Virus record (IMG/VR): IMGVR_UViG_3300036774_000066
Coordinates: 1 to 64,000 of that record
DNA: 64,000 nucleotides
Direction: 5' to 3' (one strand)
Source: a virus
Positions 12,357-58,998 of this stretch are shown piece by piece. How positions within the stretch are numbered: the first letter of the stretch is position 1; every line of letters begins with the position of its first letter. The translations under genes were made by a program, and so were the position numbers. A model generated the notes under the pieces. The model was not told the origin of the DNA and did no database searches. It saw only the letters and a program-made list of their open reading frames with translations.

Positions 12357-12360
12357 ATTA

Positions 12361-13005
12361 TTACACCCAATCTTTCAAAACTTCTTGAATAGCAACTAAG
12401 CCAGCGTCAACTATCCAAGGCTCTTTTCTCCTCAAAACTAACGGTATTTCTGTACATCCGAGAATAACCTTCTTCACAGGGTTATCTCGCAATCTCAAAG
12501 AAACCGCAACCGCATACATTCTTTCCTCGTCTAATTCTGAAATCTCCCCTGAAATCGCATGTTCAATTGCCTCATTCACATACCCCTGTTCACGATCTGT
12601 TACAAACAACCCACCCGAATACACACTCCTTGCTGTCCGAGAACACAGCACACCAAAAGAATCTCCTCCACAAGAATCAATTGCACACTTTGGCATGTTT
12701 ACTAAAATACCACCAGACTTTTCATAGAAATAATCAAAGTAAACATGCGCTGTATTACATGCAAGCAAGATAGAACTTACACTATTCCGGGTAAGTAAAC
12801 AAATTCCATTCAAGACATCATTCTTCAACACACTCTCATCTATTTCACCCGTCTCACTTATGCCATAAGAAGACATATTGTAAATAATAATCTCAGGGAA
12901 ATCCCCGTCCCTCCTGCATCCCATCTTCTGACATTCCTTAACAATAGTGTCATAAAAGTAAACACCAGCGGCAGCACCCATTCCTGCCAAAATACCAATT
13001 CTCAC
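12361..13005 (-). CDS. aspartate/glutamate racemase family protein
   Basis: A 214-residue protein. GILAGMGAAAG at 4-14, ACNTAH at 82-87 and GCTEIP at 183-188 are the signature blocks of Asp/Glu racemases. Both catalytic cysteines (C83 and C184) are present, so the enzyme should be active. The family interconverts L- and D-amino acids. It overlaps the preceding tagged gene by four bases and is followed by the ATP-grasp ligase, which suggests the two act on the same amino acid. Why a phage carries this is not evident. Confidence 0.8.
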   Translation of the reverse strand: MRIGILAGMGAAAGVYFYDTIVKECQKMGCRRDGDFPEIIIYNMSSYGISETGEIDESVLKNDVLNGICLLTRNSVSSILLACNTAHVYFDYFYEKSGGILVNMPKCAIDSCGGDSFGVLCSRTARSVYSGGLFVTDREQGYVNEAIEHAISGEISELDEERMYAVAVSLRLRDNPVKKVILGCTEIPLVLRRKEPWIVDAGLVAIQEVLKDWV

Positions 13006-13175
13006 AGTGCGGCAATCCTTTCAATCACCTTATCAATTGACATATCAGAAGGAACACACGACCAAAGAGCATCCTTTACAGGAGGTATCCTTTTGCCGCT
13101 GCCCTTCCCCCCGTCATCAACATCGTCCTCATTTTCATGGGACTTTACTTCATATATTCTTGACAGAAGATTCAT
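13002..13175 (-). CDS. small protein with N-terminal RIYE tag
   Basis: A 57-residue protein starting MNLLSRIYEVKS. The ATG at 13175 has GAGG 6 bases upstream and produces the tag shared by the cluster. The rest is an acidic/Gly linker (NEDDVDDGGKGSGK) followed by a short helical tail. It is the last gene of the tag cluster before the racemase. The function is unknown; a capsid-internal protein is inferred from the tag. Confidence 0.7.
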   Translation of the reverse strand: MNLLSRIYEVKSHENEDDVDDGGKGSGKRIPPVKDALWSCVPSDMSIDKVIERIAAL

Positions 13176-13176
13176 G

Positions 13177-13950
13177 TCACGCCTCTTTGACGTAGTATTC
13201 TGTCGCTCCAAAAACCTTCGACTCTTTCTTAGACATTCCAAGAGACTTCACAGCACCCATAGCAATCTGCTCATTCTCCGTTGTCCAAACCACACCATCC
13301 TTATCCGCACCACGCTTCCAATTCGCCTCGATTCCCCCAAGGGTAACTTTCGTCATCACGTCAGTCATTCCCCGAAGGTGCCACGTATCGTCCTTCTTGT
13401 AAATCTCAACCAAACCACCGCCCTGCTCATTGACTGTCTGCTCTTTCATGTCAGACATCTTGGTTACGTTCTTTACCTGAGTAAGGTCCAATTCCTTTTT
13501 TCCTCGAATCATAAACCAATCTGTATCCTTTGCAGTACCCGTAGAAAACTTCTGCTGATAAGCATAAGTATCCTCTGGAACTTTGCCCACAAACTGCATC
13601 AATTCCTTCTTTGATCCAACAGAAACAGTTGCACTATCAAGGCTCTTGATAGCATTCTTTATCTCACTGTCAGACATTCCTTTTGCTTCGTCAATCCTTG
13701 TGTCCTCATACATCCGAGTCATCAAAGGCCCACGGAAAGACTCGCTCTTCACATTCGCCGCTCCCAAGGCACGCTTCAAAGCAGTAACCGTTTTGGTATC
13801 CTCTTTCTCAGGTGCCTCCAACTTTGTCAACACACTCATAAGCATCTCAAAAGGAAGTCCCTCTGTCTTCTTATCTGTCATCCTGCTTGTCACAACGGAC
13901 AGCAAAGCATGGAGAGCCGCATTCTCTTTCGGGGTAATGGTAACATTCAT
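13177..13950 (-). CDS. hypothetical protein with internal RMYE motif
   Basis: A 257-residue protein. The N-terminal 70 residues are helical and Lys/Ala rich; GPLMTRMYEDT at 74-84 is an internal copy of the cluster tag, so cleavage after E82 would release an N-terminal piece. The C-terminal part (DTDWFMIRGKKELDL, DDTWHLRGMTDVM, DGVVWTTENEQ) looks like a small beta domain. GGAGG precedes the ATG, which overlaps the upstream TGA. Confidence 0.65.
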   Translation of the reverse strand: MNVTITPKENAALHALLSVVTSRMTDKKTEGLPFEMLMSVLTKLEAPEKEDTKTVTALKRALGAANVKSESFRGPLMTRMYEDTRIDEAKGMSDSEIKNAIKSLDSATVSVGSKKELMQFVGKVPEDTYAYQQKFSTGTAKDTDWFMIRGKKELDLTQVKNVTKMSDMKEQTVNEQGGGLVEIYKKDDTWHLRGMTDVMTKVTLGGIEANWKRGADKDGVVWTTENEQIAMGAVKSLGMSKKESKVFGATEYYVKEA

Positions 13951-14255
13951 CAAAAGCCTCCAGGGTTATGTGATGCAGCATACGCCGCTGATGATCTCTT
14001 TGGAAATTGATCCATTGCCGTATAGTCAAACTCGGTATTTATCTTCTTTGTCTTGTACATCTTCTGAAGCAAAGACTCCCCAATCTGACTCGTCTTATAG
14101 TCCAAATTTGCTACTCTAATTTTCAAGATATTCTTACCGTTAATAGTAGGCTGACCATGCTTGTCCTTGCCAACCTCCTTGACTGTTATACGTTTATTCT
14201 TAAACTTCCCAACGTATACGGTATCTCCCACCTCAATTGGCAGTATTATTGGCAT
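13950..14255 (-). CDS. KOW-like small protein with internal KMYK motif
   Basis: A 101-residue protein. Residues 8-30 (VGDTVYVGKFKNKRITVKEV) form a KOW/SH3-like strand pair, followed by GQPTINGKNILKIR. I recall this arrangement from conserved proteins of T4-like phages. At 61-68 SLLQKMYK matches the cluster tag except that Lys replaces Glu. The remaining 33 residues are basic and Ser/Ala rich. The function is unknown. Confidence 0.65.
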   Translation of the reverse strand: MPIILPIEVGDTVYVGKFKNKRITVKEVGKDKHGQPTINGKNILKIRVANLDYKTSQIGESLLQKMYKTKKINTEFDYTAMDQFPKRSSAAYAASHNPGGF

Positions 14256-14258
14256 AAA

Positions 14259-14885
14259 TCACTTCTTGAGAAGATCAGTAATATCAGAATATCCTTTAGA
14301 TGATTTCACACGATACTTCGCAAGTGCCTTCTGCTCAACATCCCCGTAGTCATTACCCTCTGCTATCTGAACTACCTTGGGACCGTACCCAATTCTCCCG
14401 TAGGCATTCGCAGCAACAAACCCGTTTCCCTTTGCAAATATCGCAAAGTAATGATACTTGTTAGAACTTCCTTCTTGAAAGACAAGAAATCTAAACCATT
14501 TTGGGATTCCTGTAACGTCTAACTGCTTTCTCATTGTCTCAACAATTCCCGCAAAGTGCTTTCGAGAAGGCTCTAAGTATGCCATCTCCTCATTAACAGA
14601 GCTAACAGGCTTAACAGGCTTAACAGGCTCAACAGAATTTATACTCTCCTCAATACCGGATATAGCCTTCAAACCTTCCTTCAACTTTGTCACGTCTTTA
14701 TCTGAAATTGCCAGACTTGTCAAGATAGAAGTCATCCTGCTATCTGCCTGTGGATGCTCCGCAGCAAGAGAAGCAACAGCAAGTAGATACTGCGCTTGCT
14801 TTTTAGTCATGTTAAGAGACGCTTCCTGCAAACTTCCCTCTTGCACAGGTTGACTCTTTCCGTACATATCCTGAAAGAGACTCAT
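14259..14885 (-). CDS. WGR-domain protein with N-terminal tag
   Basis: A 208-residue protein. It starts MSLFQDMYGKS, the cluster tag with Gly in place of Glu. Residues 30-85 are helical, 86-96 a Pro-Val-Lys linker (EPVKPVKPVSS), and 131-200 form a WGR-like domain: strands ending in AYGRIGYGPK (161-170), then an ALAKYRVKSSKGY helix. WGR domains bind nucleic acid, for example in PARP and MolR proteins. The tag plus this domain suggest a DNA-contacting internal head protein. Confidence 0.7.
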   Translation of the reverse strand: MSLFQDMYGKSQPVQEGSLQEASLNMTKKQAQYLLAVASLAAEHPQADSRMTSILTSLAISDKDVTKLKEGLKAISGIEESINSVEPVKPVKPVSSVNEEMAYLEPSRKHFAGIVETMRKQLDVTGIPKWFRFLVFQEGSSNKYHYFAIFAKGNGFVAANAYGRIGYGPKVVQIAEGNDYGDVEQKALAKYRVKSSKGYSDITDLLKK

Positions 14886-14887
14886 GG

Positions 14888-15445
14888 CTACTCCTTATCC
14901 GACTTACTATCTGTCAATTCTTTGAGAACTTTCGTCAGGATTTCCTGGTACGCTTTCATTAAAGCCTTCGCCTGTGGTCCACCCTTCTTCATTATCTTGT
15001 AAACTTCCATTGTAAATTTCAATTCTATTCGTGTACCCTTACGTACACAATCAACTCTCGCATCATCCATCTTACTAAACAACTTATCATACTTCGGCTC
15101 TTGCGTCTCATAGTTTACATAGTACGCAATATCCTCTGGATTCACTTCTTCCGGCACGTCACGAATAACAGCACCAGCAAATCCCCAATCGGATTTCTTT
15201 ACTTCTACACTCTCTGTAACCTTCCCTGTTGACGGACTAATATGATCGAATACAAACTGTGAAGCCCACTCCTTTGCCCTCTCATAATTCCCGCCAAAAG
15301 AAGACTTGAACTTTGACGCTACCAAGTCACGCATGGTATTAACATTCGCATCAGGCTTACGGTCAACCATGCCCTTCAAATAGTCAATTGCGTCTATCTC
15401 AAGGTCAGCAACTCTTGACTCATACATTTCCTGTAGTAAACTCAT
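14888..15445 (-). CDS. tagged protein, N-terminal EMYE
   Basis: A 185-residue protein starting MSLLQEMYESRV, identical in the first nine residues to the next gene downstream in coordinate (15448). The body is unrelated: a helical region with many Asp/Glu and Lys, KKSDWGFAGAVIRDV near the middle, and a Lys-rich helical tail ending LTDSKSDKE. AAGGAGTA-type sites precede this and neighbouring genes. The function is unknown. Confidence 0.7.
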   Translation of the reverse strand: MSLLQEMYESRVADLEIDAIDYLKGMVDRKPDANVNTMRDLVASKFKSSFGGNYERAKEWASQFVFDHISPSTGKVTESVEVKKSDWGFAGAVIRDVPEEVNPEDIAYYVNYETQEPKYDKLFSKMDDARVDCVRKGTRIELKFTMEVYKIMKKGGPQAKALMKAYQEILTKVLKELTDSKSDKE

Positions 15446-15447
15446 GG

Positions 15448-15852
15448 TTACTCTCTTTCTCCAACTAATCCTTGCTTCTCTGCCATCTTTAGCAACTTAA
15501 CTACCCAAGACTTGATATTCTCCTTATCAGAAGAATCCAATTTCTCCCCCGTGACAATCTTCTTCCATTCACCAAGAGTAAATGACAAATCTCTTACCGA
15601 AGCCTGAATAATCCCTGATTTTGTCATCGCCGGATCATACATCAAATAAGTATCTGGTGCATCGGCCTCAAAATACACCTTCACAATCTTCGCCCAATAC
15701 TTCTTACCAACAGAAGGATCAATCTTCTTGTACTCACCATCCTGCAAACGCTCTACTGCATTGTAAACATCGTCTTTAACATCTTTCAAAAACATTGCAG
15801 TGTCAGCGTCATACTCTTGTGTCTTTTCATACATTTCCTGTAGTAAACTCAT
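15448..15852 (-). CDS. tagged protein, N-terminal EMYE
   Basis: A 134-residue protein starting MSLLQEMYEKTQ. After the tag it has a helical segment (FLKDVKDDVYNAVERLQDGEY), a beta-rich middle (YWAKIVKVYFEADAPDTYL) and LGEWKKIVTGEKLD. The KKIVTGEKLD region resembles KKIITKEKLD in the tagged protein at 17840-18058, so the two bodies may be distant relatives. The function is unknown. Confidence 0.7.
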   Translation of the reverse strand: MSLLQEMYEKTQEYDADTAMFLKDVKDDVYNAVERLQDGEYKKIDPSVGKKYWAKIVKVYFEADAPDTYLMYDPAMTKSGIIQASVRDLSFTLGEWKKIVTGEKLDSSDKENIKSWVVKLLKMAEKQGLVGERE

Positions 15853-15854
15853 GG

Positions 15855-16025
15855 CTATCCCCTTTTCAAAGTCTTCTTACTCAAAGCACTCTGGCAATGC
15901 TTCATCTTTGCAACATCCCCACGCATCCTTGCCTTATTCAACTGCTCACGCGCACGAGCTAACTTATCCGTTCGCTTCATAGCGGACAGTGGTGAAGCCT
16001 CATACATTCTTTGTAGTAAAGTCAT
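15855..16025 (-). CDS. small basic tagged protein, N-terminal RMYE
   Basis: A 56-residue protein starting MTLLQRMYEASP at 16025 and stopping at 15855. After the tag it is strongly basic and helical (RTDKLARAREQLNKARMRG, then many Lys and one Cys). It fits exactly between two other tagged genes. A short basic body would suit a DNA-bound internal head protein. Confidence 0.7.
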   Translation of the reverse strand: MTLLQRMYEASPLSAMKRTDKLARAREQLNKARMRGDVAKMKHCQSALSKKTLKRG

Positions 16026-16028
16026 TGC

Positions 16029-16328
16029 CTACCTCAAAGACACAAACACAGGAACACCCTTAACTAACTTGTATATAGCATCTATTCCATCCTTACCATC
16101 AGAATAATCTTCAAAGTAAAGTAAAAACCTAAATTCATTCCCTGAACTTTTTGTCACATTAAGAACCTGTGCCCACCACCCCTCCTTATCTTTCTTATCT
16201 ATAGGATGCTGCGCATTTATTGATATTTCGTTGTCATAGGCTTTACGAATCTTCTCCTCTGTATATGGACCCTTCATTGTCTTTATATTGCCCTTACTCT
16301 TTTCATAAATCTTACTAAGTAAACCCAT
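16029..16328 (-). CDS. tagged protein, N-terminal KIYE
   Basis: A 99-residue protein starting MGLLSKIYEKSKG. The body has GPYTEEKIRKAY, an aromatic strand region (GWWAQVLNVTKSSGNEFRFL) and ends FVSLR. GWWAQVLNV resembles KYWAKIVKV in the 15448-15852 protein, so a shared small beta domain is possible. The function is unknown. Confidence 0.7.
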   Translation of the reverse strand: MGLLSKIYEKSKGNIKTMKGPYTEEKIRKAYDNEISINAQHPIDKKDKEGWWAQVLNVTKSSGNEFRFLLYFEDYSDGKDGIDAIYKLVKGVPVFVSLR

Positions 16329-16339
16329 ATCTAACCTCC

Positions 16340-17542
16340 TTATGATAGATAAACCGTTATCTCATACCGTCCGGTATCATGCTTGTACCACGTAAGCACA
16401 AGCACACAATTGTCAATCTCACCTTGGGCATTTTTCAGGCTAATTGTGGTTCTTCCTTCTCGTCCAGTAATAAACCCTTCCCACTCATTACCATCCTCAT
16501 CAATAGGAATCACCCCTTCTTTCTTACAAGCATCAAAAATCTGCTTCAAAGGAAAGTCACTATGCAACTTTGTACTAAGATCACGAAGAGTATCATTTAT
16601 CCTTGACCTTATAGCAGGTCCAATGGTGTTCTTTTTTGCTGCTTCGTCAAGACCTTCTGTGATTTTGCTCTTTGCCAAAGCCTTCTTGAACAAGGTAGTA
16701 AAAGGCTCCCCTTCATAGTGATTGTCAATAGCCTTCTCTGGGCTAATACCTTTGTCAATATCCTTAATCACAAGGTCAATATTGACTGTTGTAAGCCTTA
16801 CCATGTTAGGATTATGATAGTATCTCGAACTCTTTAATGACTTTGCATAAAGTTTCTTGTCATAGTCATCCAAAGCAGCAACCAACACTTCTCGTACTTT
16901 CTTAGAATCAACACTCTCATGTATGGAACTCAAAAGATTTCTGAGATATGCAACCGCCTGAGTCAAAGGACCGTCAAAAATCTTCCTGCTTCCCTTAAAC
17001 AAAGCAACTGTACCGTCCGCTGCTGCCCTTGATCTCTCAATCGGAGTTACCTTATCAGAATATTTACTTACTAAATCGTCAAGCTCTTTGGAAGTATCCC
17101 AATTCTTAGCCTCAATTACTCTATTCCCCTTGCCCATCTTCACATCTCTTTTCTTTCTTTTTTCCTCTGGGTCAATGGAGTCGGTCGAAGGATAGTAAAA
17201 CATCTTCCCGGCTGGACCCACGGAAGCACTCGTTGTAAGCTCATAGAATCTTGCCAACAACGGACCCACGTACCTTTCATCTTTCTCTCCCCGCGCCTTC
17301 TCGAACGCAATTGGAGAGTAGTCATGCGCCTTCAGCCACGCTTTAGCCTCTGAGGGGCTAAATTTGTCCGCTGAGAAGCGAATAGAGGCCACGGCGGTCC
17401 TTCCCCCTCTCTCACCCTTCTTTGCCCTCAGACCGTACAAAACACTGATCCCCGGCTTAAACTCATCAGTTGCCCAACGATAGCCTTTGAACTTGGAATT
17501 GTCTATCTTAGCAGAATGATAATTCACGAATCCACGGGGCAT
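16340..17542 (-). CDS. 400-residue protein with internal RFYE motif
   Basis: Residues 50-80 (ASIRFSADKFSPSEAKAWL then KAHDY) match a short module, F-S-x-x-EAKAWLKEHGY, that I know from the start of several phage head proteases and head-associated proteins. LLARFYELTTS at 95-105 is the cluster tag in an internal place, so cleavage after E101 would remove the module. The remaining 300 residues are mostly helical, with a beta-rich end (CVLVLTWYKHDTGRYEITVYL). No Ser/His protease site can be named. Confidence 0.65.
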   Translation of the reverse strand: MPRGFVNYHSAKIDNSKFKGYRWATDEFKPGISVLYGLRAKKGERGGRTAVASIRFSADKFSPSEAKAWLKAHDYSPIAFEKARGEKDERYVGPLLARFYELTTSASVGPAGKMFYYPSTDSIDPEEKRKKRDVKMGKGNRVIEAKNWDTSKELDDLVSKYSDKVTPIERSRAAADGTVALFKGSRKIFDGPLTQAVAYLRNLLSSIHESVDSKKVREVLVAALDDYDKKLYAKSLKSSRYYHNPNMVRLTTVNIDLVIKDIDKGISPEKAIDNHYEGEPFTTLFKKALAKSKITEGLDEAAKKNTIGPAIRSRINDTLRDLSTKLHSDFPLKQIFDACKKEGVIPIDEDGNEWEGFITGREGRTTISLKNAQGEIDNCVLVLTWYKHDTGRYEITVYLS

Positions 17543-17553
17543 ACTTACCTCTT

Positions 17554-17823
17554 CTAATCCTTGTAGTAATATGCCTTAACAGGGCCAATACCGTTCCACT
17601 TTTTCTTCTCAACTTTCAAAACCCCAGAAGCAACCAACTTCTTCAGAACTGCAACTTGCTCCTTGTTCCACTGCCCAATATCGGGAATACCACGAAACTT
17701 ATCCCCAAGAAAAGTATAAACCTCACTAAAACCTTCCTCCCACTTATCCAAACCAACACCCCTCATCAAATTTACAACTTCAGAATTGTCACCTTCGTAC
17801 AGGTCAATCAGTAGATTTTTCAT
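17554..17823 (-). CDS. tagged protein, N-terminal DLYE
   Basis: An 89-residue protein starting MKNLLIDLYEGDN. The ATG at 17823 has GAGGAG 7 bases upstream; an earlier start has no such site. The body is helix-rich with WEEGFSEVYTFLGDKF and a C-terminal KVEKKKWNGIGPVKAYYYKD, like a small winged-helix or ribosomal-like fold, but this is only an impression. Confidence 0.7.
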   Translation of the reverse strand: MKNLLIDLYEGDNSEVVNLMRGVGLDKWEEGFSEVYTFLGDKFRGIPDIGQWNKEQVAVLKKLVASGVLKVEKKKWNGIGPVKAYYYKD

Positions 17824-17839
17824 TACACAACTCCTCAAG

Positions 17840-18058
17840 TTACTTACTGTTTATCTCATACTTCCCAGATTGCTTTTCTTGGTCAAGTTTCTCTTTTGTG
17901 ATGATCTTCTTGATTGACTTGCCGGAAATCGGAAACACATAAGTCACAGCGTATTTACCATCACTACGAGGATGATTGTTTATATAAAGAATAGAATTTC
18001 CTGTGGGAGCATCACCAAAACCCTCATACATTCTACAAAATAAACTCGCATGGAACAT
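17840..18058 (-). CDS. tagged protein, N-terminal RMYE
   Basis: A 72-residue protein starting MFHASLFCRMYEGFG, with AGAGGGG 5 bases before the ATG. The tag here has three extra residues before the SLFCRMYE core. The body (YAVTYVFPISGKSIKKI, then ITKEKLDQEKQSGKYEI) is a small beta sheet followed by a helix and strand, resembling the end of the protein at 15448-15852. Confidence 0.7.
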   Translation of the reverse strand: MFHASLFCRMYEGFGDAPTGNSILYINNHPRSDGKYAVTYVFPISGKSIKKIITKEKLDQEKQSGKYEINSK

Positions 18059-18059
18059 A

Positions 18060-18440
18060 CTAACCCCTCTGGTCTTTCCTTTTCATCATAATCTTCGCTG
18101 GCTGACATCTCTTACACATAGGAGTATTCATCTTACCCCAACCCACTACTTCTGTTCCTCCACACCGAGGACACGGCTCAAATTCCCCTTCAACCTTTTT
18201 CTCGTATATTCTACAAAGTAAACTCATATCCGACTGCTCTACTTTCTCAACCTTCGAGTTTACAAGTCTTAATTCTGTCATCGGAACATCAGGGGCCTCT
18301 TTGAAAACATAGTACCAATCTGACCCTATTGCATCCGTTGTCACCTTATCAACAGTAAGGACACCCTTCTTTACAGTATAGGGAAATAAGAGTCTGTCTC
18401 CTTTGTTATACAACGGCTTCTTTTTAGGGGCATCAACCAT
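18060..18440 (-). CDS. zinc-ribbon protein with internal RIYE tag
   Basis: A 126-residue protein from ATG 18440 (a TTG at 18470, overlapping the upstream stop, is also possible). Residues 1-70 form a small beta domain (YNKGDRLLFPYTVKKGVL). MSLLCRIYEKK at 72-82 is a complete cluster tag with its own ATG (at 18227), followed by a zinc ribbon (CPRCGG and CKRC). Either one fused protein is made and cut, or a 55-residue tagged zinc protein is also translated from the inner ATG. Confidence 0.65.
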   Translation of the reverse strand: MVDAPKKKPLYNKGDRLLFPYTVKKGVLTVDKVTTDAIGSDWYYVFKEAPDVPMTELRLVNSKVEKVEQSDMSLLCRIYEKKVEGEFEPCPRCGGTEVVGWGKMNTPMCKRCQPAKIMMKRKDQRG

Positions 18441-18466
18441 ATCCCCCCAAAGATTCTTAATCTTTA

Positions 18467-18781
18467 TCAAAAAGCCCCGTTCACCTTGTCATAATCTTCC
18501 GGGGAAAGTATCTTCTTTGCCTTCTCCATAGCCACAAGAGCAAACTCTTCTCTGGCTCTCTTTGCACCCTCAGACAAGTGACCCCAATAATCAGAAATTG
18601 TCTCTATTGCGTCAAGAGCCTTGACCATTTTTGCATCCTTCAAAATCTCCTTTGCCAAAATCTTCAGACTTTCCGTGTGAAAATTTTGGTCCGTAGCCTT
18701 TGCAATCTTCTTAACAACCGCGTCAACACTCAGACTCTTAGAAACTGCTTCGTTCAAAAACAAATCTGATTGATAGCTCAT
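18467..18781 (-). CDS. helical protein with degenerate tag
   Basis: A 104-residue protein. The start MSYQSDLFLNEAVSKSLSVD is nearly the same as that of the next upstream gene (MSRQSDLFLDEAVSKGLLVD), but the YE of the tag is replaced by AVV. The rest is all-helical with many Ala/Lys/Glu. It may be a paralogue that lost the cleavage site and stays uncut. Confidence 0.65.
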   Translation of the reverse strand: MSYQSDLFLNEAVSKSLSVDAVVKKIAKATDQNFHTESLKILAKEILKDAKMVKALDAIETISDYWGHLSEGAKRAREEFALVAMEKAKKILSPEDYDKVNGAF

Positions 18782-18822
18782 AAGAAATCTCCTACTTGTC
18801 CAATTTGAGAGTAGAAACCCAC

Positions 18823-19500
18823 TTAATCTTCATCATAGTCACTACGAAACTTTTTCTTCCTCTCATCCCAATAATCATTTATGTAGTCCTCAATATCATG
18901 CATAGCATCTGAAAAGTCAGGATCATCCACAGATTTCTGACTGCTCAACGCTTTCCTAATAAAAGCCTTCACTTTCTTCATATCTCCAAAATCTTTTACA
19001 AGCCTCTTCGCCACAGATTCATAATTCTGTAACCCATAAGAAGATTTTTTCATGTACTTATCTTCAATGGGCGTGTAAGACTCTTCTGACTTCTTTTTCT
19101 CTGCCTTCTCAACATAGCTATCTATAAAAGAAACAATTTTCTTTACAGCAGATAACAAGTCCTCTTGGGTAAAAGAGATGTTATCTATTTCCTTCAGGGC
19201 ACCTTTCCCTGAATCTTCTATGATACAGTTAATCCTAAAAGTATCTTCCTTCGGTTTATGTTCAGTTGTGCTATGAACTACCAAATCCCAATCAAACCTA
19301 ATTCTCCACTTACCCTTTGTAGCGTCAGGTCTACCTCCCCAACTACTTGAATTAACTTTCCAACCAAGACCCTTCAAATAATCAAAGGACGGCTTTAAGT
19401 AAGGAAGAATAGTACGTTTATCATCCTTTACCTCATACAAATCAACCAAAAGACCCTTAGAAACTGCTTCGTCTAAAAACAAATCTGATTGACGGCTCAT
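18823..19500 (-). CDS. tagged protein with extended N terminus
   Basis: A 225-residue protein. The tag LLVDLYE is at 17-23, after a 16-residue lead shared with the 18467-18781 protein. The body has an alpha/beta region (KWRIRFDWDLVVHSTTE, then FRINCIIEDSG), a helical segment, and a charged C terminus (IEDYINDYWDERKKKFRSD). No family is recognised. Confidence 0.7.
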   Translation of the reverse strand: MSRQSDLFLDEAVSKGLLVDLYEVKDDKRTILPYLKPSFDYLKGLGWKVNSSSWGGRPDATKGKWRIRFDWDLVVHSTTEHKPKEDTFRINCIIEDSGKGALKEIDNISFTQEDLLSAVKKIVSFIDSYVEKAEKKKSEESYTPIEDKYMKKSSYGLQNYESVAKRLVKDFGDMKKVKAFIRKALSSQKSVDDPDFSDAMHDIEDYINDYWDERKKKFRSDYDED

Positions 19501-19516
19501 ACAGAACTCCTCATGC

Positions 19517-19723
19517 TTATTTTGAAAGCATTGCTTGTATCTCTTTTGCTGACATCAGGGTTACTTTACCCTTCCCGATAACATTGTAATGCGTCTCTCC
19601 ATCAATAACCTGAGAAGAACTAAAGTCAATCTTCATTCCACGCTTCTGCAACAAATCTTGAGCCTTATCAAGAGTCAGCCGTGAGCGAGGACCAACCTCA
19701 TAAATTTTCCTAAGTAAACTCAC
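19517..19723 (-). CDS. tagged protein, N-terminal KIYE (GTG start)
   Basis: A 68-residue protein. GTG at 19723 gives MSLLRKIYEVGPRSR, which matches the family exactly; the longer open frame upstream would bury the tag. The body (LDKAQDLLQKRGMKIDFSSS, then THYNVIGKGKVTLMSAKEI) looks like a small alpha-beta domain similar to the next gene, where IIPKGKKKMI and SSDQLAQWV occupy matching places. Confidence 0.7.
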   Translation of the reverse strand: MSLLRKIYEVGPRSRLTLDKAQDLLQKRGMKIDFSSSQVIDGETHYNVIGKGKVTLMSAKEIQAMLSK

Positions 19724-19724
19724 C

Positions 19725-20003
19725 CTATTTATCCAGTTTGAGAGTGGAAACCCACTGCGCCAACTGGTCACTACTCATAAGGGGAGAACTCTTTATCATC
19801 TTCTTCTTTCCCTTTGGAATTATCTTATATCCAGGGGCACCAGCAGCATCTACAGGCTTAATCATGAATGCATTTCCAGCATCCGTCTTTACATTCACAC
19901 TCTTATATGACATAAGAGCATCAAATATCTCTGCGGCATCACCAGACAAATCATAGTCTTTTGCAGTAGGTCTTGACTCGTACATTTTCCTAAGTAAACT
20001 CAT
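19725..20003 (-). CDS. tagged protein, N-terminal KMYE
   Basis: A 92-residue protein starting MSLLRKMYESRP, with AGGAGGT 5 bases before ATG 20003. The body has SGDAAEIFDALMSYKSVNVK, a strand pair around GNAFMIKPVD and YKIIPKGKKKMIKS, and an end SSDQLAQWVSTLKLDK. It is probably a paralogue of the protein at 19517-19723. The function is unknown. Confidence 0.7.
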   Translation of the reverse strand: MSLLRKMYESRPTAKDYDLSGDAAEIFDALMSYKSVNVKTDAGNAFMIKPVDAAGAPGYKIIPKGKKKMIKSSPLMSSDQLAQWVSTLKLDK

Positions 20004-20013
20004 TACGCACCTC

Positions 20014-20301
20014 CTACGCCATAGCCACAGCCGCGCCTCTTCTTGCCCTTGCATCTGCAAATTCCTGACGCATATCAGCTAACCGTGTCTTAGCCTCATC
20101 ATAACTTCTTGCCAAAAAGGTAGACTTTGTTATTCTATCTGTAAACGTAAATTGCTTTAGGTCTTCCCACCAGCCATTGAAAATAACACCCAACTTATCA
20201 GCAATACTCTTTCCTTGCTTCCTAAGATCATCAGGAAGAAGGGACTCCTCAATAAACCCAAAGTCAGTACCCGTCTCGTACATATCCCTAAGTAAAGTCA
20301 T
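20014..20301 (-). CDS. tagged protein, N-terminal DMYE
   Basis: A 95-residue protein starting MTLLRDMYETGTD at ATG 20301 with GGAAAG upstream, overlapping the end of the preceding tagged gene by 14 bases. The body contains LGVIFNGWWEDLKQFTFTDR and a basic Ala/Arg helix at the C terminus (QEFADARARRGAAVAMA). The function is unknown. Confidence 0.7.
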   Translation of the reverse strand: MTLLRDMYETGTDFGFIEESLLPDDLRKQGKSIADKLGVIFNGWWEDLKQFTFTDRITKSTFLARSYDEAKTRLADMRQEFADARARRGAAVAMA

Positions 20302-20956
20302 ACACTTTCCATTCAGGATTTTTGCCTTCAAAATCAGTAACCAACCTTATTTTTCTCCAATCCCCACGCCTTGAAATATTGTTCGCTTCAATCACAATTC
20401 CTTTAGGGTCACGAGGAGTTAGCTTCTTAGGCTCCACAGTCACGTAGTAACTAACAGTCTCAGAATCTTTATTGTGCGGAATAGTCTGTGATTTTCCAAT
20501 AGATAGTATCTTATCCCATTTACTCTTTATTATTGGTAAAGCATATTTTAGTAGATCAACCATCACTTTCTTTACTTGTGAAACTGACAACGGCTCATAC
20601 TGTTCCACCGTTGTCTTCCCATACGGCGCATACGCCGATCCACCAAGCCCCACTGACGTTGTACCTGTTCCCACAAACCCACTCTTTTGTTTGTCTGCTT
20701 GACTATAATCAAATCCGGCAACTTTCTTAGAAAAATCTGTTCTTTTTCCATCACTATAAGCCGAAACTATCTTCCCATCCTTACCTCTTGCCGAAGAAAC
20801 AGCATACGTCCCATCCTGAAACTCATAGACATAAACATCCTTAACAAAACCAACACTTGACTCCCTTGCCTTAGAATCAGCATCGTTCTTATTCTTGAAT
20901 CCTGTCAAGAACAATTCAGAACCAGCAGCCTCGTATATGTCAACAAGAACACCCAA
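20288..20956 (-). CDS. tagged protein, N-terminal DIYE (TTG start)
   Basis: A 222-residue protein. TTG at 20956 has AGGAG 8 bases upstream and gives MGVLVDIYEAAGS. The longer open frame to 20998 overlaps a terminator-like hairpin (20978-21005), so the internal TTG is the better start. The body has YVYEFQDGTYAVSSARGKDG, a Gly-rich loop (FVGTGTTSVGLGGSAYAPYG), a helical stretch, and a beta-rich C terminus (SYYVTVEPKKL). No family is recognised. Confidence 0.7.
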   Translation of the reverse strand: MGVLVDIYEAAGSELFLTGFKNKNDADSKARESSVGFVKDVYVYEFQDGTYAVSSARGKDGKIVSAYSDGKRTDFSKKVAGFDYSQADKQKSGFVGTGTTSVGLGGSAYAPYGKTTVEQYEPLSVSQVKKVMVDLLKYALPIIKSKWDKILSIGKSQTIPHNKDSETVSYYVTVEPKKLTPRDPKGIVIEANNISRRGDWRKIRLVTDFEGKNPEWKVYDFT

Positions 20957-20975
20957 ACTATCTTTCTCCTGTTTG

Positions 20976-21005
20976 AAAAGCAGGGCACGTCTCCGCACCC
21001 TGCTT
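20976..21005 (-). terminator. terminator-like hairpin
   Basis: On the minus strand AAGCAGGG pairs with CCCTGCTT (8 bp) around a 12-base loop and is followed by a short T tract (CTTTTC). It lies between the gene at 21045-21257 and the tagged gene that starts at 20956. The T tract is weak, so termination may be partial. Confidence 0.6.
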
Positions 21006-21044
21006 CAATATCCCCCTTGCCCGGAACCTTATTGCCCCAGACAG

Positions 21045-21257
21045 TTACGGATTGATCTTGATTGCACCTGACGCAGCTATCGCAGCCTGCAAGGTATTCA
21101 TAGCATCCGTTACGTCAGAAGCCAATCCCTGCACCGCGCCAAGAGTCAACGTGCTGATCGAAACAGTCACCATGTCAACCCCAACAGCACTGTCAATCAA
21201 CTGTGTCTTGGTGTAATCATTCGCTTCCTTGACACTCGGGTATAGTCCTCCAGCCAT
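21045..21257 (-). CDS. hypothetical small protein
   Basis: A 70-residue protein with AGGAGG 5 bases before the ATG. It is Ala/Val/Thr/Asp rich with a long hydrophilic helix (VQGLASDVTDAMNTLQAAIA) and no tag. The composition resembles small virion or scaffold-like proteins. The strong ribosome site and the terminator behind it suggest separate, possibly high, expression. Confidence 0.65.
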   Translation of the reverse strand: MAGGLYPSVKEANDYTKTQLIDSAVGVDMVTVSISTLTLGAVQGLASDVTDAMNTLQAAIAASGAIKINP

Positions 21258-21278
21258 AGAAGCCTCCTCAGTTAAAGT

Positions 21279-21671
21279 TTACTTTGGCTCAATCTCTTCC
21301 CATTCCCCAGACTTCTTCAAGGCATCCATAACTGATCTTGCTTTCGCAGACAGTTTTGGGTTTTGCTTTACATTCCAACGCTCTATGTTCATTATGGCTT
21401 TCGCCATTGCAGACTTCCCCTTACTCTTAGCAATCTTGATGAAATGGGAAACCAAATCCTTCACACCCCACTCATCCCATGCACCATCCGGCAACTCAGT
21501 AATACCCGGATGTTTTGACTTAACCATTACCTTCTCAGAAAGAGTAGGCTCTTCTGAAAGATCAAACTTTCCCCAAACATCAACAAGAGAATCAAGACAC
21601 TCAAGAAGTTTCTTGATGTAACCAGAGCCACACTCTCGAATTACTTTTGCTCTTGTAGAAAATCGGGACAT
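21279..21671 (-). CDS. hypothetical helical protein
   Basis: A 130-residue protein starting MSRFSTRAKVIRECG. It is Lys/Ser/Glu rich, with DGAWDEWGVKDLVSHFIKIA near 63-82 and a basic helical region (AKAIMNIERWNVKQNPKLS). GGACAGGA lies before the ATG. It has no tag, although it is inside the tag cluster. Confidence 0.65.
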   Translation of the reverse strand: MSRFSTRAKVIRECGSGYIKKLLECLDSLVDVWGKFDLSEEPTLSEKVMVKSKHPGITELPDGAWDEWGVKDLVSHFIKIAKSKGKSAMAKAIMNIERWNVKQNPKLSAKARSVMDALKKSGEWEEIEPK

Positions 21672-21689
21672 AACACTTTCCTGTCCTGC

Positions 21690-21742
21690 AAATATAAAAA
21701 TAGGCTACCAAGGAATTGCACAAAGTCAACTCCTTAATAGCC
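21690..21742 (-). terminator. intrinsic terminator after the acidic tagged gene
   Basis: On the minus strand GGCTA-TT-AAGGA pairs with TCCTT-GG-TAGCC (two 5-bp stems with a small internal loop) and is followed by TATTTTTATATTT. It lies just past the stop at 21756. Confidence 0.7.
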
Positions 21743-21755
21743 CAAAACCACCTCC

Positions 21756-22232
21756 CTAATCCTTGTCGTCTTCCCCGCCCTCATCGTCTTCCCCGCCCTC
21801 ATCGTCTTCCCCGCCCTCATCGTCAGAACCTTCCCCTGCTGTCCAATCCACATACTTCCCCATCATCTCAACTGCGGCAGCTTCGACCTCTTCAATCGTT
21901 TCAACGCTTACGCCCTCGTCAACATCATCTCCAGAGTTTGCATCAACAGCGTAAACGTCAACTGCCCCTTCATACGCTTCAATGATGATGGAAATATCCT
22001 CAGACGAATCTGAGAACAGCACCAAGAAAGGCTCTTCCCCGTCATCGCGATCCCCAACAGACCAACCATTTTCAGTAGCCAAACCTTCCGCTTTGTCAAA
22101 CCACTCTACCAAAGCATCGGCCTCAAGCTGCTCACATACGCCCTCTTTGGGTTTCTTCTTTTTCGCTTCGTCAAGAATGTCAGAAGGTTGCCCTCCTGCA
22201 TCCTCGTATATATCAGAAAACAAGGATGACAT
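21756..22232 (-). CDS. acidic tagged protein, N-terminal DIYE
   Basis: A 158-residue protein starting MSSLFSDIYEDAGG, with GGAGG before ATG 22232. A basic AKKKKPKEG patch follows at about 23-31, then a mostly acidic alpha/beta body (PFLVLFSDSSEDISIIIEAY) and a C-terminal run of DEGGED repeats (three exact 18-bp units at 21766-21819). The strong negative charge suggests a DNA mimic or a binder of basic proteins. It is followed by a terminator. Confidence 0.7.
   Translation of the reverse strand: MSSLFSDIYEDAGGQPSDILDEAKKKKPKEGVCEQLEADALVEWFDKAEGLATENGWSVGDRDDGEEPFLVLFSDSSEDISIIIEAYEGAVDVYAVDANSGDDVDEGVSVETIEEVEAAAVEMMGKYVDWTAGEGSDDEGGEDDEGGEDDEGGEDDKD
21766..21819 (-). repeat. three 18-bp tandem repeats encoding DEGGED
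   Basis: Three identical 18-bp units (tcgtcttccccgccctca on the plus strand) follow each other without interruption at the 3' end of the acidic tagged gene and keep frame. Confidence 0.9.
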
Positions 22233-23405: not shown

Positions 23406-25883
23406 CTACTTTCGATCTTCGGCACTCAGAAAGACACCCTTCAAGAAATTCACGGCACCAACTTTCCGTCCTTCAAAAAGATTGCCCATCTTCTCATAAG
23501 TTAATGACCTAAAAACATTGAGAGATGGAACCCTTCTGAGGTCATTTTCTTTGACCACCCTACTGAGGCAGGAACTAAAAGCAAGAACCGCTTTGTTGAA
23601 GTCAAGATTCTCAGGCAAAAGTTTCCGAATATTCTTATGCAAATCTGTCCGCTTGACTACTTCCATTCGCAAATTATCAAGTATATCAGCAGACAAAACC
23701 TTCTTAGCTACGTCCTCGTAATACTCAGGGGTTGCCTGTTCACAAACATCAACAGGGGTCAAACTTCTATCATACATTTCAGTGATAAACGCAGAAATCT
23801 CTTCATGGTCCTTCTGAGACAAAGAAAGATTCCTTGCTCGCATGGTATTCAAAGCGGCGTAAAAATCTGGATACAACTCGACTAATCGAGTATATAGAGA
23901 CTTACACAAATTACTCTCAGACAGTTTGTCAATTTCAACCAATAAAGGACTAATAGCACAAAGAGTAGCATCATCAAGTTTTGAAAACTCTTCAGCAACA
24001 TCCTTCAAATTCAAGACATATTTCTTTACATTTGCTACAAGAGTAGTCTTATCAGCACTTCCAAACTTATGTATCAAAGCATTCTCAATAATAGCTGGAA
24101 TATTTGGATTCCTTGTCAACAAGGCTTCCGCAATCTCCATCCCACGGAACTCTACTCCAAATCGTTTACAAGACTCAGTTAGTTTCTCACTAACCTTATC
24201 GTGATTATCTTCATTGATAGGAGTACCATTCAAAAGATTCAATACTTCAACAACAGCAGAGTCATAAGGAACACATTCTTCCGCTTGTAAAGAAGAAAAT
24301 CCACACCGACCACACTTCCCACCACCAAACCCTTCCCCACCGCAGCGAGGACACATCATACCTCTCACACCGTTTCCAGAGGAAAGAACCTGCTCAAGGT
24401 CATACCCACACTCAATACAATGCTTCGGGTAACGTCCGCGATACTTCGGAATAAGCATCCCACAAACAGGACACTGACTCTTGTACTTTATCTTGTCAAA
24501 AGCAGATTGCATCCCCGGAGTCATACCATTGCCCTGCTCATCAACAGAATCAAAAGCCGCTTCATCAGCATCCTCAAAGACCTGCTCATTCTTTTCTTTT
24601 TTAAGAGCATTCAAAATCTCAGAATTTTCAATGTACGCAGTAAAACGATTAGTCTTAATACTTGTCACAACACAGTAACTCTTGTCTCCCATCACTTTCT
24701 CAATTACCCAATCCTGACCAATATACTTAAACTTCTGCCCAACCTTTACTCCGCTGCTCTCGTCAAGTGCCTGCTCATCCGTCTCAGGGACATCCTCACC
24801 GTGGCTCGCAAGTGCTCTCTGAAAACGATCTGCTTTCTTTGCACACTCTTTACACAGTACACCAACATTCTTGTCAACAGCAAATCCAGGCTTACCACAC
24901 TTCACACATTTCTTATCAGAGGCTTCTTCGATCTGTTCCCAATTCATATTATTTGCAATGTACTGAGTGTAAAGACTATTCACTGCCTTCATATCTGAAA
25001 TATCAAACTGCTGAGAAAACTGAATCAGCGTCTTACTCAAGGTCAAGTCTTGATGGTCCTTAAACCAATCAAACATTTTTCGAGTAATATTCACACCAGA
25101 TTCATTTACTTGCTCCACTTTCTTATCCATTGGAATAACAGCATCAATTCTTATTCCCGTAGGAGGTCTTTCCCTTTTAGCAATGAAACAAAACCCCTTA
25201 TTATGTGGGTCTTTCCACGAAATAATACCCTTTGGCAACCTGCCTATCAACCCTTCCATTGTCTTACACGACACTGAATATGTGTCACCATCCTCAAGAT
25301 TCTTAATCATCTGATCCAAGTCAGCAACAGCCTCAAGCACAATAACCTTACCCATATTTTCTTCCTTTACTGGCGGCATATTTGCCCCTAACGTATCACC
25401 ACACTCCGGGCAAAACTTGGGATACCTACCAGGGTATGCCGGAATAACAAAACCACATCCCTCACACTTCCTCCAAACCTTACCCTTAGAGATATGCCCA
25501 TTTACAGCCTTGCCCATCCCCGGAGTCATCTGCTCATTCAACTTATCAAGAACAATCTCAGCTACTTGACAAATAGTAGCAGCCTCATTGGTTGAAACAC
25601 CAGAGGTCATGTACTTTCGGAAAAGGGAATCAAGAAAAATTCCCAAATCGGAAATACCGGAAACGGTATCCTTATTTGTTCCCTTGACTTTCTTCAGCAA
25701 GTCAAGGATACCCTTAGAAACTTCTTTGGCTTGGGCTTTTACTTCGGAGGGAAAATCGACAACAAAATCTCCAAGTGCCTTTAGAAATTCGGCACCCTTT
25801 TCAAGATCGGAGATTGACTGAACATACTTGGAAGGAATCGTCTGGGAAACAGCATCCTCAAACACGGTGCGCGTTGCGGACAT
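23406..25883 (-). CDS. 825-residue head-region protein with four zinc ribbons
   Basis: It follows the portal gene and overlaps it by 26 bases. Four CxxC...CxxC zinc sites lie at about 140-161, 326-347, 471-492 and 511-527. The first and third are near copies (IPAYPGRYPKFC and IPKYRGRYPKHC), each preceded by MTPGM, so that region is duplicated. The ribbons are separated by helical or Glu-rich stretches. AFITEMYDRSL at 698-708 resembles the cluster tag, with Asp in place of Glu. In T4 the gene after the portal is the prohead protease, but I see no protease motif here. Confidence 0.65.
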   Translation of the reverse strand: MSATRTVFEDAVSQTIPSKYVQSISDLEKGAEFLKALGDFVVDFPSEVKAQAKEVSKGILDLLKKVKGTNKDTVSGISDLGIFLDSLFRKYMTSGVSTNEAATICQVAEIVLDKLNEQMTPGMGKAVNGHISKGKVWRKCEGCGFVIPAYPGRYPKFCPECGDTLGANMPPVKEENMGKVIVLEAVADLDQMIKNLEDGDTYSVSCKTMEGLIGRLPKGIISWKDPHNKGFCFIAKRERPPTGIRIDAVIPMDKKVEQVNESGVNITRKMFDWFKDHQDLTLSKTLIQFSQQFDISDMKAVNSLYTQYIANNMNWEQIEEASDKKCVKCGKPGFAVDKNVGVLCKECAKKADRFQRALASHGEDVPETDEQALDESSGVKVGQKFKYIGQDWVIEKVMGDKSYCVVTSIKTNRFTAYIENSEILNALKKEKNEQVFEDADEAAFDSVDEQGNGMTPGMQSAFDKIKYKSQCPVCGMLIPKYRGRYPKHCIECGYDLEQVLSSGNGVRGMMCPRCGGEGFGGGKCGRCGFSSLQAEECVPYDSAVVEVLNLLNGTPINEDNHDKVSEKLTESCKRFGVEFRGMEIAEALLTRNPNIPAIIENALIHKFGSADKTTLVANVKKYVLNLKDVAEEFSKLDDATLCAISPLLVEIDKLSESNLCKSLYTRLVELYPDFYAALNTMRARNLSLSQKDHEEISAFITEMYDRSLTPVDVCEQATPEYYEDVAKKVLSADILDNLRMEVVKRTDLHKNIRKLLPENLDFNKAVLAFSSCLSRVVKENDLRRVPSLNVFRSLTYEKMGNLFEGRKVGAVNFLKGVFLSAEDRK

Positions 25884-27822
25884 AAATTCTCTTTGCCCTT
25901 TCCTGTAATGCAGGAATCTTCAAGTCCCTATGGGAAGGACGGACCTGATCTGTAATCCAAAATCCTTGGCCCACAAGGTTTCGGATTTTATTGGCTCTGT
26001 CTTTGGCAATACCGTTGCCATTACCGTTGGAGCCATTACCTTCCTCTTGTAGTGTATCAAAATCTAAATCCTCTGTCCCTTCACCTTCCTTGGCACCAAA
26101 AGCAGAACTCGAAGTACCCGTGACCGCTCCCGGCAACACTGCCTTTTTCTTGACTACCCTCTTAAACAACTTATCAAGGTCCAAATCAGGAAATGCAAAT
26201 AGCTGTTTGAAAATGTACTCAAGATAAACTGCCTTATCAACGATCCCTTCCATCTCACCAGACAATCCAAGCATGGAGGTAGCAATACCAATCTTTCTCT
26301 CCATGTATTCCAGACGCGAATCCTCTTCCGCAGACGAAATAGGAACCATCCCAATTGTCAAATCTTCAACACTGATATTCTGACCGTACTTATACGACAA
26401 GTGAATTTGGAACAGACGATACATGCCTTCAATCAAAGCCCTCTGTACTTTCTTGACCATACGGGCATATCGTATGTCAAGACGGGTAAGTGTTTGTGAA
26501 CCTGCAAACCCCGGTATTGACTCGGACATTCCTAAAAATGCCCCAGGTATTCTTATGGCTGCAAGCAACTTGTCTCGAATATACTCAATGTCAACAATGT
26601 CCTTGATATTCACATCACCGCCAACAGTCTCAACCCGCATGTCTCCTTTTGTGCCAGTGTAAGGAATGAAAACTTCATCGTTGTACTGCAAAGGATTGTA
26701 CTTCATCCGATAGAAATTCACCGGAATATCAATTGCCTTCTTCTGCATGAATTTCTGCTCAAGGTCACGGATAAGTTCTTTTCTTTCGTCCTTTGTCATC
26801 CCTTCCGTATTGACATAAAAAACTCGAATCAAAGGGGAACGAGCCAAACGCGCAAGGGCAAGGGATACTTCCAACAAGTTCAAGATACGGTAGATCAATC
26901 TTGCATTCTGTAAAACTGAAGTACCGTACATGGAAGTAAGAATCCGCTCAACCATCTTTCTCTGACCCGGCGCAATTCCTCCCCCCGGCTGTCTATTCAT
27001 GTCAATCATGTGACGAGAGGGAGACTTCTGAGGATCACCTGCATCTACGTCATAAGTAGCCTTGTCATACGGGGCAGTGTCTCTTGTTTTATCTCCATAC
27101 TCCGCAGGCTGTCCATCTTCATCTGGCTTCTTCCCATTTTCCGACTTCTTGACAGAATCTTCCCAAAGTTTCACCTTTACAGATTCAAAATTGGGTTTGA
27201 AATTGTTGATAAAATGGACATACCCAGACGAATCCATTATCTCTTCTTTACGTGTGGAAGTATCCTTCTTAATAAAGCAAGCAAGTTTTCCATCAATGTC
27301 AACACGGTATACACTCTTCGGATGCTCAGACTCACGAATATTGGATATTCCAACTCCCTGCTCAGGGAATACCCTCAAAAAGAAATCCCCGTACTTAGCA
27401 ATGTTGTATGTCCATCCCCAGACTTTATTCTCAAAATCAATCATTGACAAAAACTCATGCAACTCCTCTTGATACTTGTGCTTCCCACCAACTCCACCAA
27501 CCCACAAAGTCGCATTCATCTCATGCGAATACTGTGTCGCATCGTCCACAATCAACTCAAGGGCAGAGGAAATAATCGGGTCTTCTTCCATCTGGTCATA
27601 ATCTGAATACCGAGATTCACGGTCTTTCTCCAATCGCGTAGCCGCTGAAAATAGCTCCCACAATCTCCCCTCATTCATCAATACCTTAACAGTATCCGTT
27701 GCCTTATCGTCAACAACATAAACATCATTAGACCTTCCACCTTGGGCATCAGCCTGAAGTGCCTCAAGAATCATATTATCATTGACCCTTGAGTCACCCT
27801 TTTGAAATAAGCGAACTGACAT
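25858..27822 (-). CDS. portal protein, T4 gp20-like
   Basis: A 654-residue protein. RYSDYDQMEEDPIISSALEL at 71-90 is the N-terminal signature of T4-type portals, followed by VWGWTYNIAKYGDFFLRVFP, a YRILNLLEVSLALARLARSP helix, and IPGAFLGMSE with RLDIRYARMVKKVQ, all in the expected order. The portal forms the dodecameric ring through which DNA is packaged and released and to which the tail attaches. It is longer than T4 gp20 (about 520 residues) because of insertions near 215-280 (Asp/Lys/Pro rich) and a C-terminal Gly/Asn/Ser linker (GNGSNGNGNG). Confidence 0.9.
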   Translation of the reverse strand: MSVRLFQKGDSRVNDNMILEALQADAQGGRSNDVYVVDDKATDTVKVLMNEGRLWELFSAATRLEKDRESRYSDYDQMEEDPIISSALELIVDDATQYSHEMNATLWVGGVGGKHKYQEELHEFLSMIDFENKVWGWTYNIAKYGDFFLRVFPEQGVGISNIRESEHPKSVYRVDIDGKLACFIKKDTSTRKEEIMDSSGYVHFINNFKPNFESVKVKLWEDSVKKSENGKKPDEDGQPAEYGDKTRDTAPYDKATYDVDAGDPQKSPSRHMIDMNRQPGGGIAPGQRKMVERILTSMYGTSVLQNARLIYRILNLLEVSLALARLARSPLIRVFYVNTEGMTKDERKELIRDLEQKFMQKKAIDIPVNFYRMKYNPLQYNDEVFIPYTGTKGDMRVETVGGDVNIKDIVDIEYIRDKLLAAIRIPGAFLGMSESIPGFAGSQTLTRLDIRYARMVKKVQRALIEGMYRLFQIHLSYKYGQNISVEDLTIGMVPISSAEEDSRLEYMERKIGIATSMLGLSGEMEGIVDKAVYLEYIFKQLFAFPDLDLDKLFKRVVKKKAVLPGAVTGTSSSAFGAKEGEGTEDLDFDTLQEEGNGSNGNGNGIAKDRANKIRNLVGQGFWITDQVRPSHRDLKIPALQERAKRIYVRNAHRV

Positions 27823-58822: not shown

Positions 58823-58824
58823 AA

Positions 58825-58998
58825 TCATCCTTTCTTAACAGGATTCATGTGGACATTTACGTGTCCACCCTTACAGTCAATCTCACATCTTTGCGTAACT
58901 ATACCAGAATCATCCACTGCCTCTATTACAACCTTCTCTGCCTTTCCTGCATAGCAAATTGAATCATCTTTCTCTGATTCGTAAAGAATAATCTGCAT
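58825..58998 (-). CDS. hypothetical small protein
   Basis: A 57-residue protein from ATG 58998 (GAGAG upstream), starting MQIILYESEKDDSICYAG. Its strands and one Cys pair (CEIDC) suggest a small beta fold. The longer frame upstream crosses a hairpin and is not preferred. Confidence 0.5.
   Translation of the reverse strand: MQIILYESEKDDSICYAGKAEKVVIEAVDDSGIVTQRCEIDCKGGHVNVHMNPVKKG

Follow-up and report, generated by a model that had tools for sequence, protein, structure and literature searches.

Introduction

The stretch of DNA considered here (the window) comprises bases 1-64000 of IMG/VR record IMGVR_UViG_3300036774_000066, a 156,609-bp record of an uncultivated virus whose sequence places it with the T4-like myoviruses, and it raises the question of why a series of otherwise unrelated small proteins, encoded together beside the portal gene, should carry the same short peptide, of which MSLLQEMYE is one form. 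The internal proteins of T4 have only a capsid-targeting sequence (CTS) in common and have been described as defence proteins of great diversity (PMC3012670). Such internal head proteins, injected with the DNA, act ahead of any phage gene expression. Nothing but the tag is conserved among them, which makes them hard to find. On the evidence presented below, the shared peptide is likely to be a T4-type capsid-targeting and processing sequence, written in a new dialect and carried by an unusually large and rapidly reshuffled set of cargo proteins.

Distribution and conservation of the tag

Genes are referred to by their lower window coordinate (Table 1). In all of the genes for which the original prediction had listed the peptide (13/13), it was found as described, in the form M-x-(L/V)-(L/F)-x-x-(M/I/L)-Y-E when starts are taken as chosen there. 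Its placement at the very start of the protein held for most of these, but the tag begins at residue 6 in 17840 and at residue 17 in 18823, and in four unlisted genes it follows a domain. Among called genes (pattern [LVI][LFM]xx[MIL]Y(E), profile scan), 17 of 20 at 13.0-22.7 kb were tag-positive compared with 1 of 200 elsewhere (Fisher p=2e-21), the sole positive elsewhere being the kinase at 7750, and 0.4 tag-positive genes were expected from a shuffled proteome. A six-frame count with the pattern [LIVM][LFMIV]xx[MIL]YE gave 15 tags across the 9.75-kb cluster, where shuffled DNA gave 0.29 (maximum 2; 200 shuffles).

The 17 tag copies comprise 17 distinct nucleotide versions, with synonymous variation at Leu (TTA/TTG/CTT/CTA/CTG), Tyr (TAT/TAC) and Glu (GAG/GAA); since each copy differs in its nucleotides, with free synonymous change, it is the peptide and not the DNA that is conserved. 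The [MIL]-Y-E ending, a gp21-type hydrophobic-x-Glu motif, is present in nearly all of 34 strong copies, 33 of which have the Glu. Beyond the tag, nearly all pairs of cluster genes are without similarity and a few show weak self-similarity, which bears out the earlier observation that the residues following the tag share little. About 18-20 otherwise unrelated proteins, nearly all without known relatives, carry the tag in this phage, as do about 20 in a sister phage, G1 (IMG/VR 3300031772_000001, 167.7 kb), whose portal is 84% identical. The statement that tag-giving starts also have good ribosome-binding sites was upheld by eye for many of them, including AGGAGG before 16328 and 20003, GGAGG before 22232 and AGGAG before the TTG start at 20956, but not for the GTG start at 19723 or for 20301, where the sites are weak.

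The tag is away from the extreme N-terminus in at least five genes, in four of them after a conserved domain of 60-95 residues. These four domains, in 13177, 13950, 16340 and 18060, have 57-82% identity to G1 and are very probably translated, because they are conserved in the sister phage. Overall, the tag is N-terminal in most proteins, follows a domain in the four window proteins and is C-terminal in two small G1 proteins (20820-21074 and 162156-162404). Copies lacking the Glu occur in 14259 and 13950, and among the weaker copies a few have G, K, D, T or V as the last residue. A second N-terminal peptide, MS(Y/R)QSDLFL(N/D)E↓AVSK (MSRQSDLFLDEAVSK; here and below an arrow follows the Glu), is common to 18467 and 18823 only and by eye is like MKTYQEFIAE↓A of T4.

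Correspondence between the tag and the capsid cleavage site

The cluster had been placed beside a portal gene, correctly so, the portal lying at 25858-27822; the genes for protease and capsid are found further along the record (150.9-153.9 kb). The phage encodes gp23 and gp20 as well as a gp21-type S77 prohead protease, and the objection foreseen in the original prediction, a genome without a head protease, fails because the S77 protease was found in the record; this protease has a long C-terminal part that is coiled-coil in appearance. In T4, gp21 cleaves gp23 after Glu65, the propeptide being 65 residues (PMC5694885). An alignment of 61 gp23 homologs was used to fix the column equivalent to T4 Glu65, and [LIVMF]xE lay at most 2 residues from that column in 60 of the 61.

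When the capsid protein was scanned with the tag profile, the top of approximately 470 heptamers was FFKRMDE↓T, ending at E66, the T4 Glu65-equivalent, in both this phage and G1, giving an alignment of LLxRMYE↓ with FFKRMDE↓T. In L146, an unrelated T4-like contig, the capsid scanned with its own tag KQIIRE likewise gave as top heptamer the Glu65-equivalent ARQLIRE↓A (E62). The cleavage site ranked 3 in the capsid of Streptococcus phage GXN1 scanned with its own tag (QLLE↓S) and in a T4 control of the IPII/IPIII tag against gp23 (FLTE↓A). Ranking of own versus foreign capsid sites was statistically weak for L146, as most marine gp23 sites are nearly alike, and within-protein rank was therefore relied on instead. 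Among 843 genes close to the capsid gene in other phages, heptamers resembling the phage's own capsid site fell within residues 1-30 in 66 genes and within residues 31-60 in 36 (18 versus 5 at a strict threshold), and some of the N-terminal hits resemble protease or scaffold proteins, in line with T4. This enrichment lends modest support to the tag reading, as start-codon base composition may contribute to it.

Rearrangements at the tag in the sister phage

The same tags are present in G1, where modules are joined, split and swapped at the tag relative to the window. The G1 gene at 19403-19855 corresponds to window 18060 (residues 1-90) fused to window 17840 (from residue 6), the tag being the point at which the two alignments join; it is internal here (DTGLLVKMYE) with no start codon ahead, and the window holds a Zn-ribbon cassette in between. 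Similarly, G1 20222-20830 combines residues 1-128 of 20288 with the body of 20014 as an untagged C-terminal part; in the window, 20014 stands as an independent gene and bears a tag. A weaker third case of splitting is suggested by the untagged C-terminal stretch of G1 18521, in which 33 residues have 42% identity to the body of 15855, separately tagged in the window. Relative to G1, 13177 has an 84-residue insert right after the tag that shares 40% identity with a segment of G1's 996-aa portal-adjacent protein, and 14888 has tag and body in common with its G1 partner, approximately 65 residues between them being missing in G1. The G1 ortholog of 18467 has MSGLFAEMYT in place of the second tag type. 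The kinase gene lies downstream of the cluster in the window and upstream of the terminase in G1, with the tag kept in both, and five further tagged genes are found in G1 at 5-10 kb from the capsid gene. Because split-off domains gain their own tag and junctions fall at the tag, each polypeptide appears separately to need a tag, and the tag itself appears to be a recombination joint.

Tags in other phages

Between the portal and capsid genes of L146 (3015-8608), six to seven genes, consecutive or close together, start MKKSELxxIIKEE, with the tag MKKSELKQIIRE↓E; this appears to be a second dialect of the tag, in a T4-like phage that is unrelated. In GXN1 (L011 9514-22144), four open reading frames around the portal and capsid, unannotated in the record, start with or near MRLxRLxE, and Flavobacterium phage immuto has an equivalent cluster with MKKSQLRQIIKE; tags were observed beside head genes in three phage groups. 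The search of related genomes for the pattern near head genes, as advised in the original prediction, was therefore rewarded by tags of other spelling in other T4-like phages, but related portal loci from viral contigs, mostly short, held no such tag cluster. A tblastn search with the 21-residue tag of the other dialect gave no matches, the query probably being too short.

Domains preceding the tags also recur elsewhere. The VGDTxxxGKFKNK domain of 13950 is found in L146 and in Pelagibacter phage HTVC008M, with hydrophobic-Glu sequences (LANLLTE, FIMKYLE) at a comparable place after it, and in HTVC008M the adjacent gene is a homolog of the kinase. Over its first approximately 88 residues, 16340 matches a domain that fused protease-capsid proteins of siphophages CRP-821 and S-CBS3 carry ahead of their S78 protease, which hints that domains of this sort may belong to head assembly.

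Proposed mechanism and alternative explanations

The targeting and processing role is favoured by the head protease, the capsid-site match, retention of the tag in the sister phage and the tags of other spelling near head genes of further T4-like phages, and is complicated by copies that lie between domains, are C-terminal or lack the Glu. Packaging and cleavage of the tagged proteins are strongly implied by these sequence comparisons; injection of the cargo with the DNA we infer by analogy with T4 and P1, and anti-defence roles for the cargo are, by the same analogy, speculation. As the head is assembled, each protein would be docked onto the prohead core by its amphipathic LLxx[MI]Y segment, and the gp21-like S77 protease would then cleave behind the Glu of [MIL]-Y-E, just as the sequence match suggests it does in the capsid protein after FFKRMDE. 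Once freed, the cargo would stay with the DNA and leave the head with it at infection, as in T4 and P1. A domain of 60-95 residues ahead of the tag could serve as an extended propeptide or as a further cargo freed by the same cut, and the sister comparison suggests that the cargo set turns over through recombination at the tag, each separately translated domain bearing its own label. Mutagenesis of the IPIII CTS assigned residues 4 and 7 to targeting and residues 8 and 10 to processing, with Asp at 10 stopping processing and leaving targeting intact (PMC9026906), and for this reason the copies lacking Glu (MYD/MYK/MYG) may by analogy be packaged uncut.

Several observations weigh against a targeting and processing sequence. 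The P2 residue of the capsid site is Asp, not Tyr, and in absolute terms the site scores modestly (1.9 bits in this phage); the tag Glu is missing in a few copies; the phages L102 and L104, whose capsid sites come closest to that of this phage, had no comparable cluster of tagged genes in the parts of them that were read; and the position after the Glu is variable (K, R, L and V besides A, S, T and D), with small residues at most capsid sites, so that some tags may stay uncut. The last of these, together with the lack of the Glu at position P1 in several copies and the many SPN3US head proteins that remain unprocessed (PMC10052503), would fit a peptide that only docks, drawing proteins into the prohead or up to the protease-scaffold and generally left uncut, with its likeness to the capsid site due to a shared binding groove. 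Such a peptide is nevertheless unlikely, given that the Glu is as constant in the strong copies as expected of a gp21 P1 residue, and that the tag aligns with the capsid cleavage site.

It is very unlikely that the genes represent a paralogous family or mobile cassettes in which the N-terminus has diverged least: some near neighbours have near-identical tags (14888/15448) and the weak self-similarity of a few pairs extends past the tag, but nearly all pairs lack any outside it, and the tag also follows unrelated domains, stands at C-termini, is carried by a P-loop kinase encoded at a distance and matches the capsid site. Short amphipathic N-terminal helices also address bacterial microcompartments, and the peptide could conceivably address some other place, such as the host membrane or a phage-made intracellular compartment, with a coincidental capsid match; this is scarcely plausible in view of the match in two tag dialects and the proximity to head genes in three phage groups. 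A translation-initiation or regulatory DNA element (leader, ribosome-binding site or promoter) would account for the position of most copies at gene starts with good ribosome-binding sites, but was rejected on codon variation, all copies differing in nucleotides, and the internal G1 copy without a start codon ahead leaves this explanation with practically no credibility.

Building on the targeting and processing interpretation, a more general model is put forward tentatively, with rather more doubt than confidence, in which the CTS would be a position-independent packaging-and-cutting module (N-terminal, between domains or C-terminal), tag-separated proteins would be polyprotein cargos, any acquired domain could be loaded by recombination at the tag, and the spelling of the tag would co-evolve with the capsid site, such that the genome of any T4-like phage could reveal which cargo its virion holds. 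About 18-20 candidate cargo proteins are singled out by the tag here, and about 20 in the sister phage; the capsid-site match offers a simple rule for T4-like genomes, namely to take the cleavage site from gp23 and to seek it near protein N-termini.

Gene content of the cluster and its surroundings

Table 1. Tagged genes and head genes of the record, in window coordinates unless stated
Feature	Coordinates	Strand	Remarks
Tagged kinase, zeta-toxin/polynucleotide-kinase-like (putative), MSNGILADIYE↓R	7750..8520	-	outside cluster
Tagged gene, MNLLSRIYE↓V	13002..13175	-	G1 gene begins MNLLSRIYEKS
258-aa protein, internal tag LMTRMYE↓D	13177..13953	-	tag at residues 77-83 (13705-13725)
Small VGDTxxxGKFKNK domain, then tag variant LLQKMYK	13950..14255	-	tag at residues 62-68 (14052-14072)
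Tag variant MSLFQDMYG, no Glu	14259..14885	-	weak WGR domain
Tagged gene, MSLLQEMYE↓S	14888..15445	-	
Tagged gene, MSLLQEMYE↓K	15448..15852	-	
Tagged gene, MTLLQRMYE↓A	15855..16025	-	56 aa
Tagged gene, MGLLSKIYE↓K	16029..16328	-	
400-aa protein, internal tag LLARFYE↓L	16340..17542	-	tag at residues 95-101 (17240-17260)
Tagged gene, MKNLLIDLYE↓G	17554..17823	-	one extra residue before tag
Tagged gene, MFHASLFCRMYE↓G	17840..18058	-	tag from residue 6
N-domain, tag LLCRIYE↓K, then Zn-ribbon	18060..18470	-	tag at residues 84-90 (18201-18221)
Second tag type, MSYQSDLFLNE↓AVSK	18467..18781	-	
Second tag type, MSRQSDLFLDE↓AVSK, then LLVDLYE↓V	18823..19500	-	LLVDLYE from residue 17
Tagged gene, MSLLRKIYE↓V	19517..19723	-	GTG start
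Tagged gene, MSLLRKMYE↓S	19725..20003	-	
Tagged gene, MTLLRDMYE↓T	20014..20301	-	
Tagged gene, MGVLVDIYE↓A	20288..20956	-	TTG start
Tagged acidic protein, MSSLFSDIYE↓D	21756..22232	-	one extra residue before tag
Portal-adjacent multidomain protein, MSATRTVFE↓DAVS	23406..25883	-	825 aa
gp20-type portal	25858..27822	-	PF07230 1.3e-46
Terminase-like protein	28099-30222		by position and appearance; no Pfam/PHROG match
gp23 capsid protein	record 150972-152441 (outside window)		PF07068 1.1e-45
S77 gp21-type prohead protease	record 152417-153901 (outside window)		PF03420 3.9e-11, phrog_207 1.3e-32

Scans of 47 tagged and neighbouring proteins against Pfam, PHROGs, NCBIfam and PADLOC gave a single confident match, the kinase (PF13671 9.2e-11 and PF06414 4e-9, both above the curated cut-off), which alone among the cargos can be assigned to a family with confidence and by its sequence belongs to the zeta-toxin/polynucleotide-kinase-like P-loop kinases, with catalysis putative. 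Immediately ahead of its kinase domain lies a second site, VLDE↓S, the Glu of which is invariant in the kinase homologs of four phages. Matches to WGR (0.0043) and Lar (0.036) were sub-threshold, and no functions were assigned from them. The AlphaFold model of 20288 had a predicted local distance difference test score (pLDDT) of 37, and that of 14888 (pLDDT 70) had no significant fold match in PDB or BFVD.

The 996-aa G1 homolog of the portal-adjacent protein has domains in common with the tagged proteins 13177 and 16340. The G1 portal reading frame (L006 10001-13234) is 1077 aa and contains an apparent intein/endonuclease insert (CLRGNTGIRLCDG... after GAFLGM) that is missing from the window portal. 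In the head-gene region, a basic protein whose C-terminus is strongly basic and which contains a Gly-rich hydrophobic segment (L005 4827-5720 in this phage, L019 9739-10776 in G1) has the tag MFQRIYE in G1 and a degenerate MMFFYE↓G in this phage. An 862-aa protein at L005 7058-9646, possibly a head-core protein, has a tag-like N-terminus, MFQVMNE↓V, and two near-identical Lys/Arg-rich stretches of approximately 100 residues. Directly after the tagged cluster, window 10959-13005 encodes an ATP-grasp-like protein (GARS domains, under curated cut-offs) beside an Asp/Glu racemase family protein (PF01177 1.4e-16). Two QueC-like proteins at 58004-58828 and 60082-60699 (PF06508 1.4e-6 and 4.4e-5) suggest deazaguanine metabolism and perhaps modified DNA, and the window opens with a perfect 63-bp tandem repeat of 1.9 copies (1-122).

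Comparison with known systems

The CTS has already been suggested as a way in which T4-like phages pack varied proteins, and T4 Alt is also processed at its C-terminus (PMC9026906); the principle is therefore known, and the present system appears to be a new variant of it. What seems new is the number of carriers, the copies between domains, the tag as recombination joint and the tag/capsid-site match across phages, none of which was found in a limited literature search, although such absence is no proof of novelty. A paper on a 'conserved N-terminal motif' of Klebsiella RaK2 was considered as a precedent and set aside, its subject being tail spikes, not head proteins.

The few injected head proteins already known, T4 IPI and P1 Dar, block host restriction, what T4 IPIII counters being unknown (PMC9391042). 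In P1, an N-terminal signal within 30 residues sends the anti-restriction protein DarB, thought to be injected, to the head, but the Dar proteins have no common sequence (PMC9024508) and the protease is HK97-like, not T4-type. Inner-body or ejection proteins of phiKZ and SPN3US have N-terminal regions, some of >100 residues, stripped by the head protease, comparable to the tags following a 60-95-residue domain, whereas no short common tag has been described for them and the protease motif is of A/S-x-E type. The T4 CTS (IPI, IPII, IPIII and Alt) is, like the window tag, a short peptide on otherwise unrelated proteins with a gp21-type hydrophobic-x-Glu end, which resembles the phage's own gp23 site, is the only part conserved between relatives and has a hydrophobic pair at i,i+3 (Y4/F7 in T4; L4/M7 in the window tag, where residues 4 and 7 are Leu/Phe and Met/Ile/Leu). 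The two differ in their letters (MKTYQEFIAE versus MSLLQEMYE) and in their carriers, which are three internal proteins and Alt in T4 and about 18-20 proteins clustered beside the portal here, with copies also between domains and, in G1, at C-termini.

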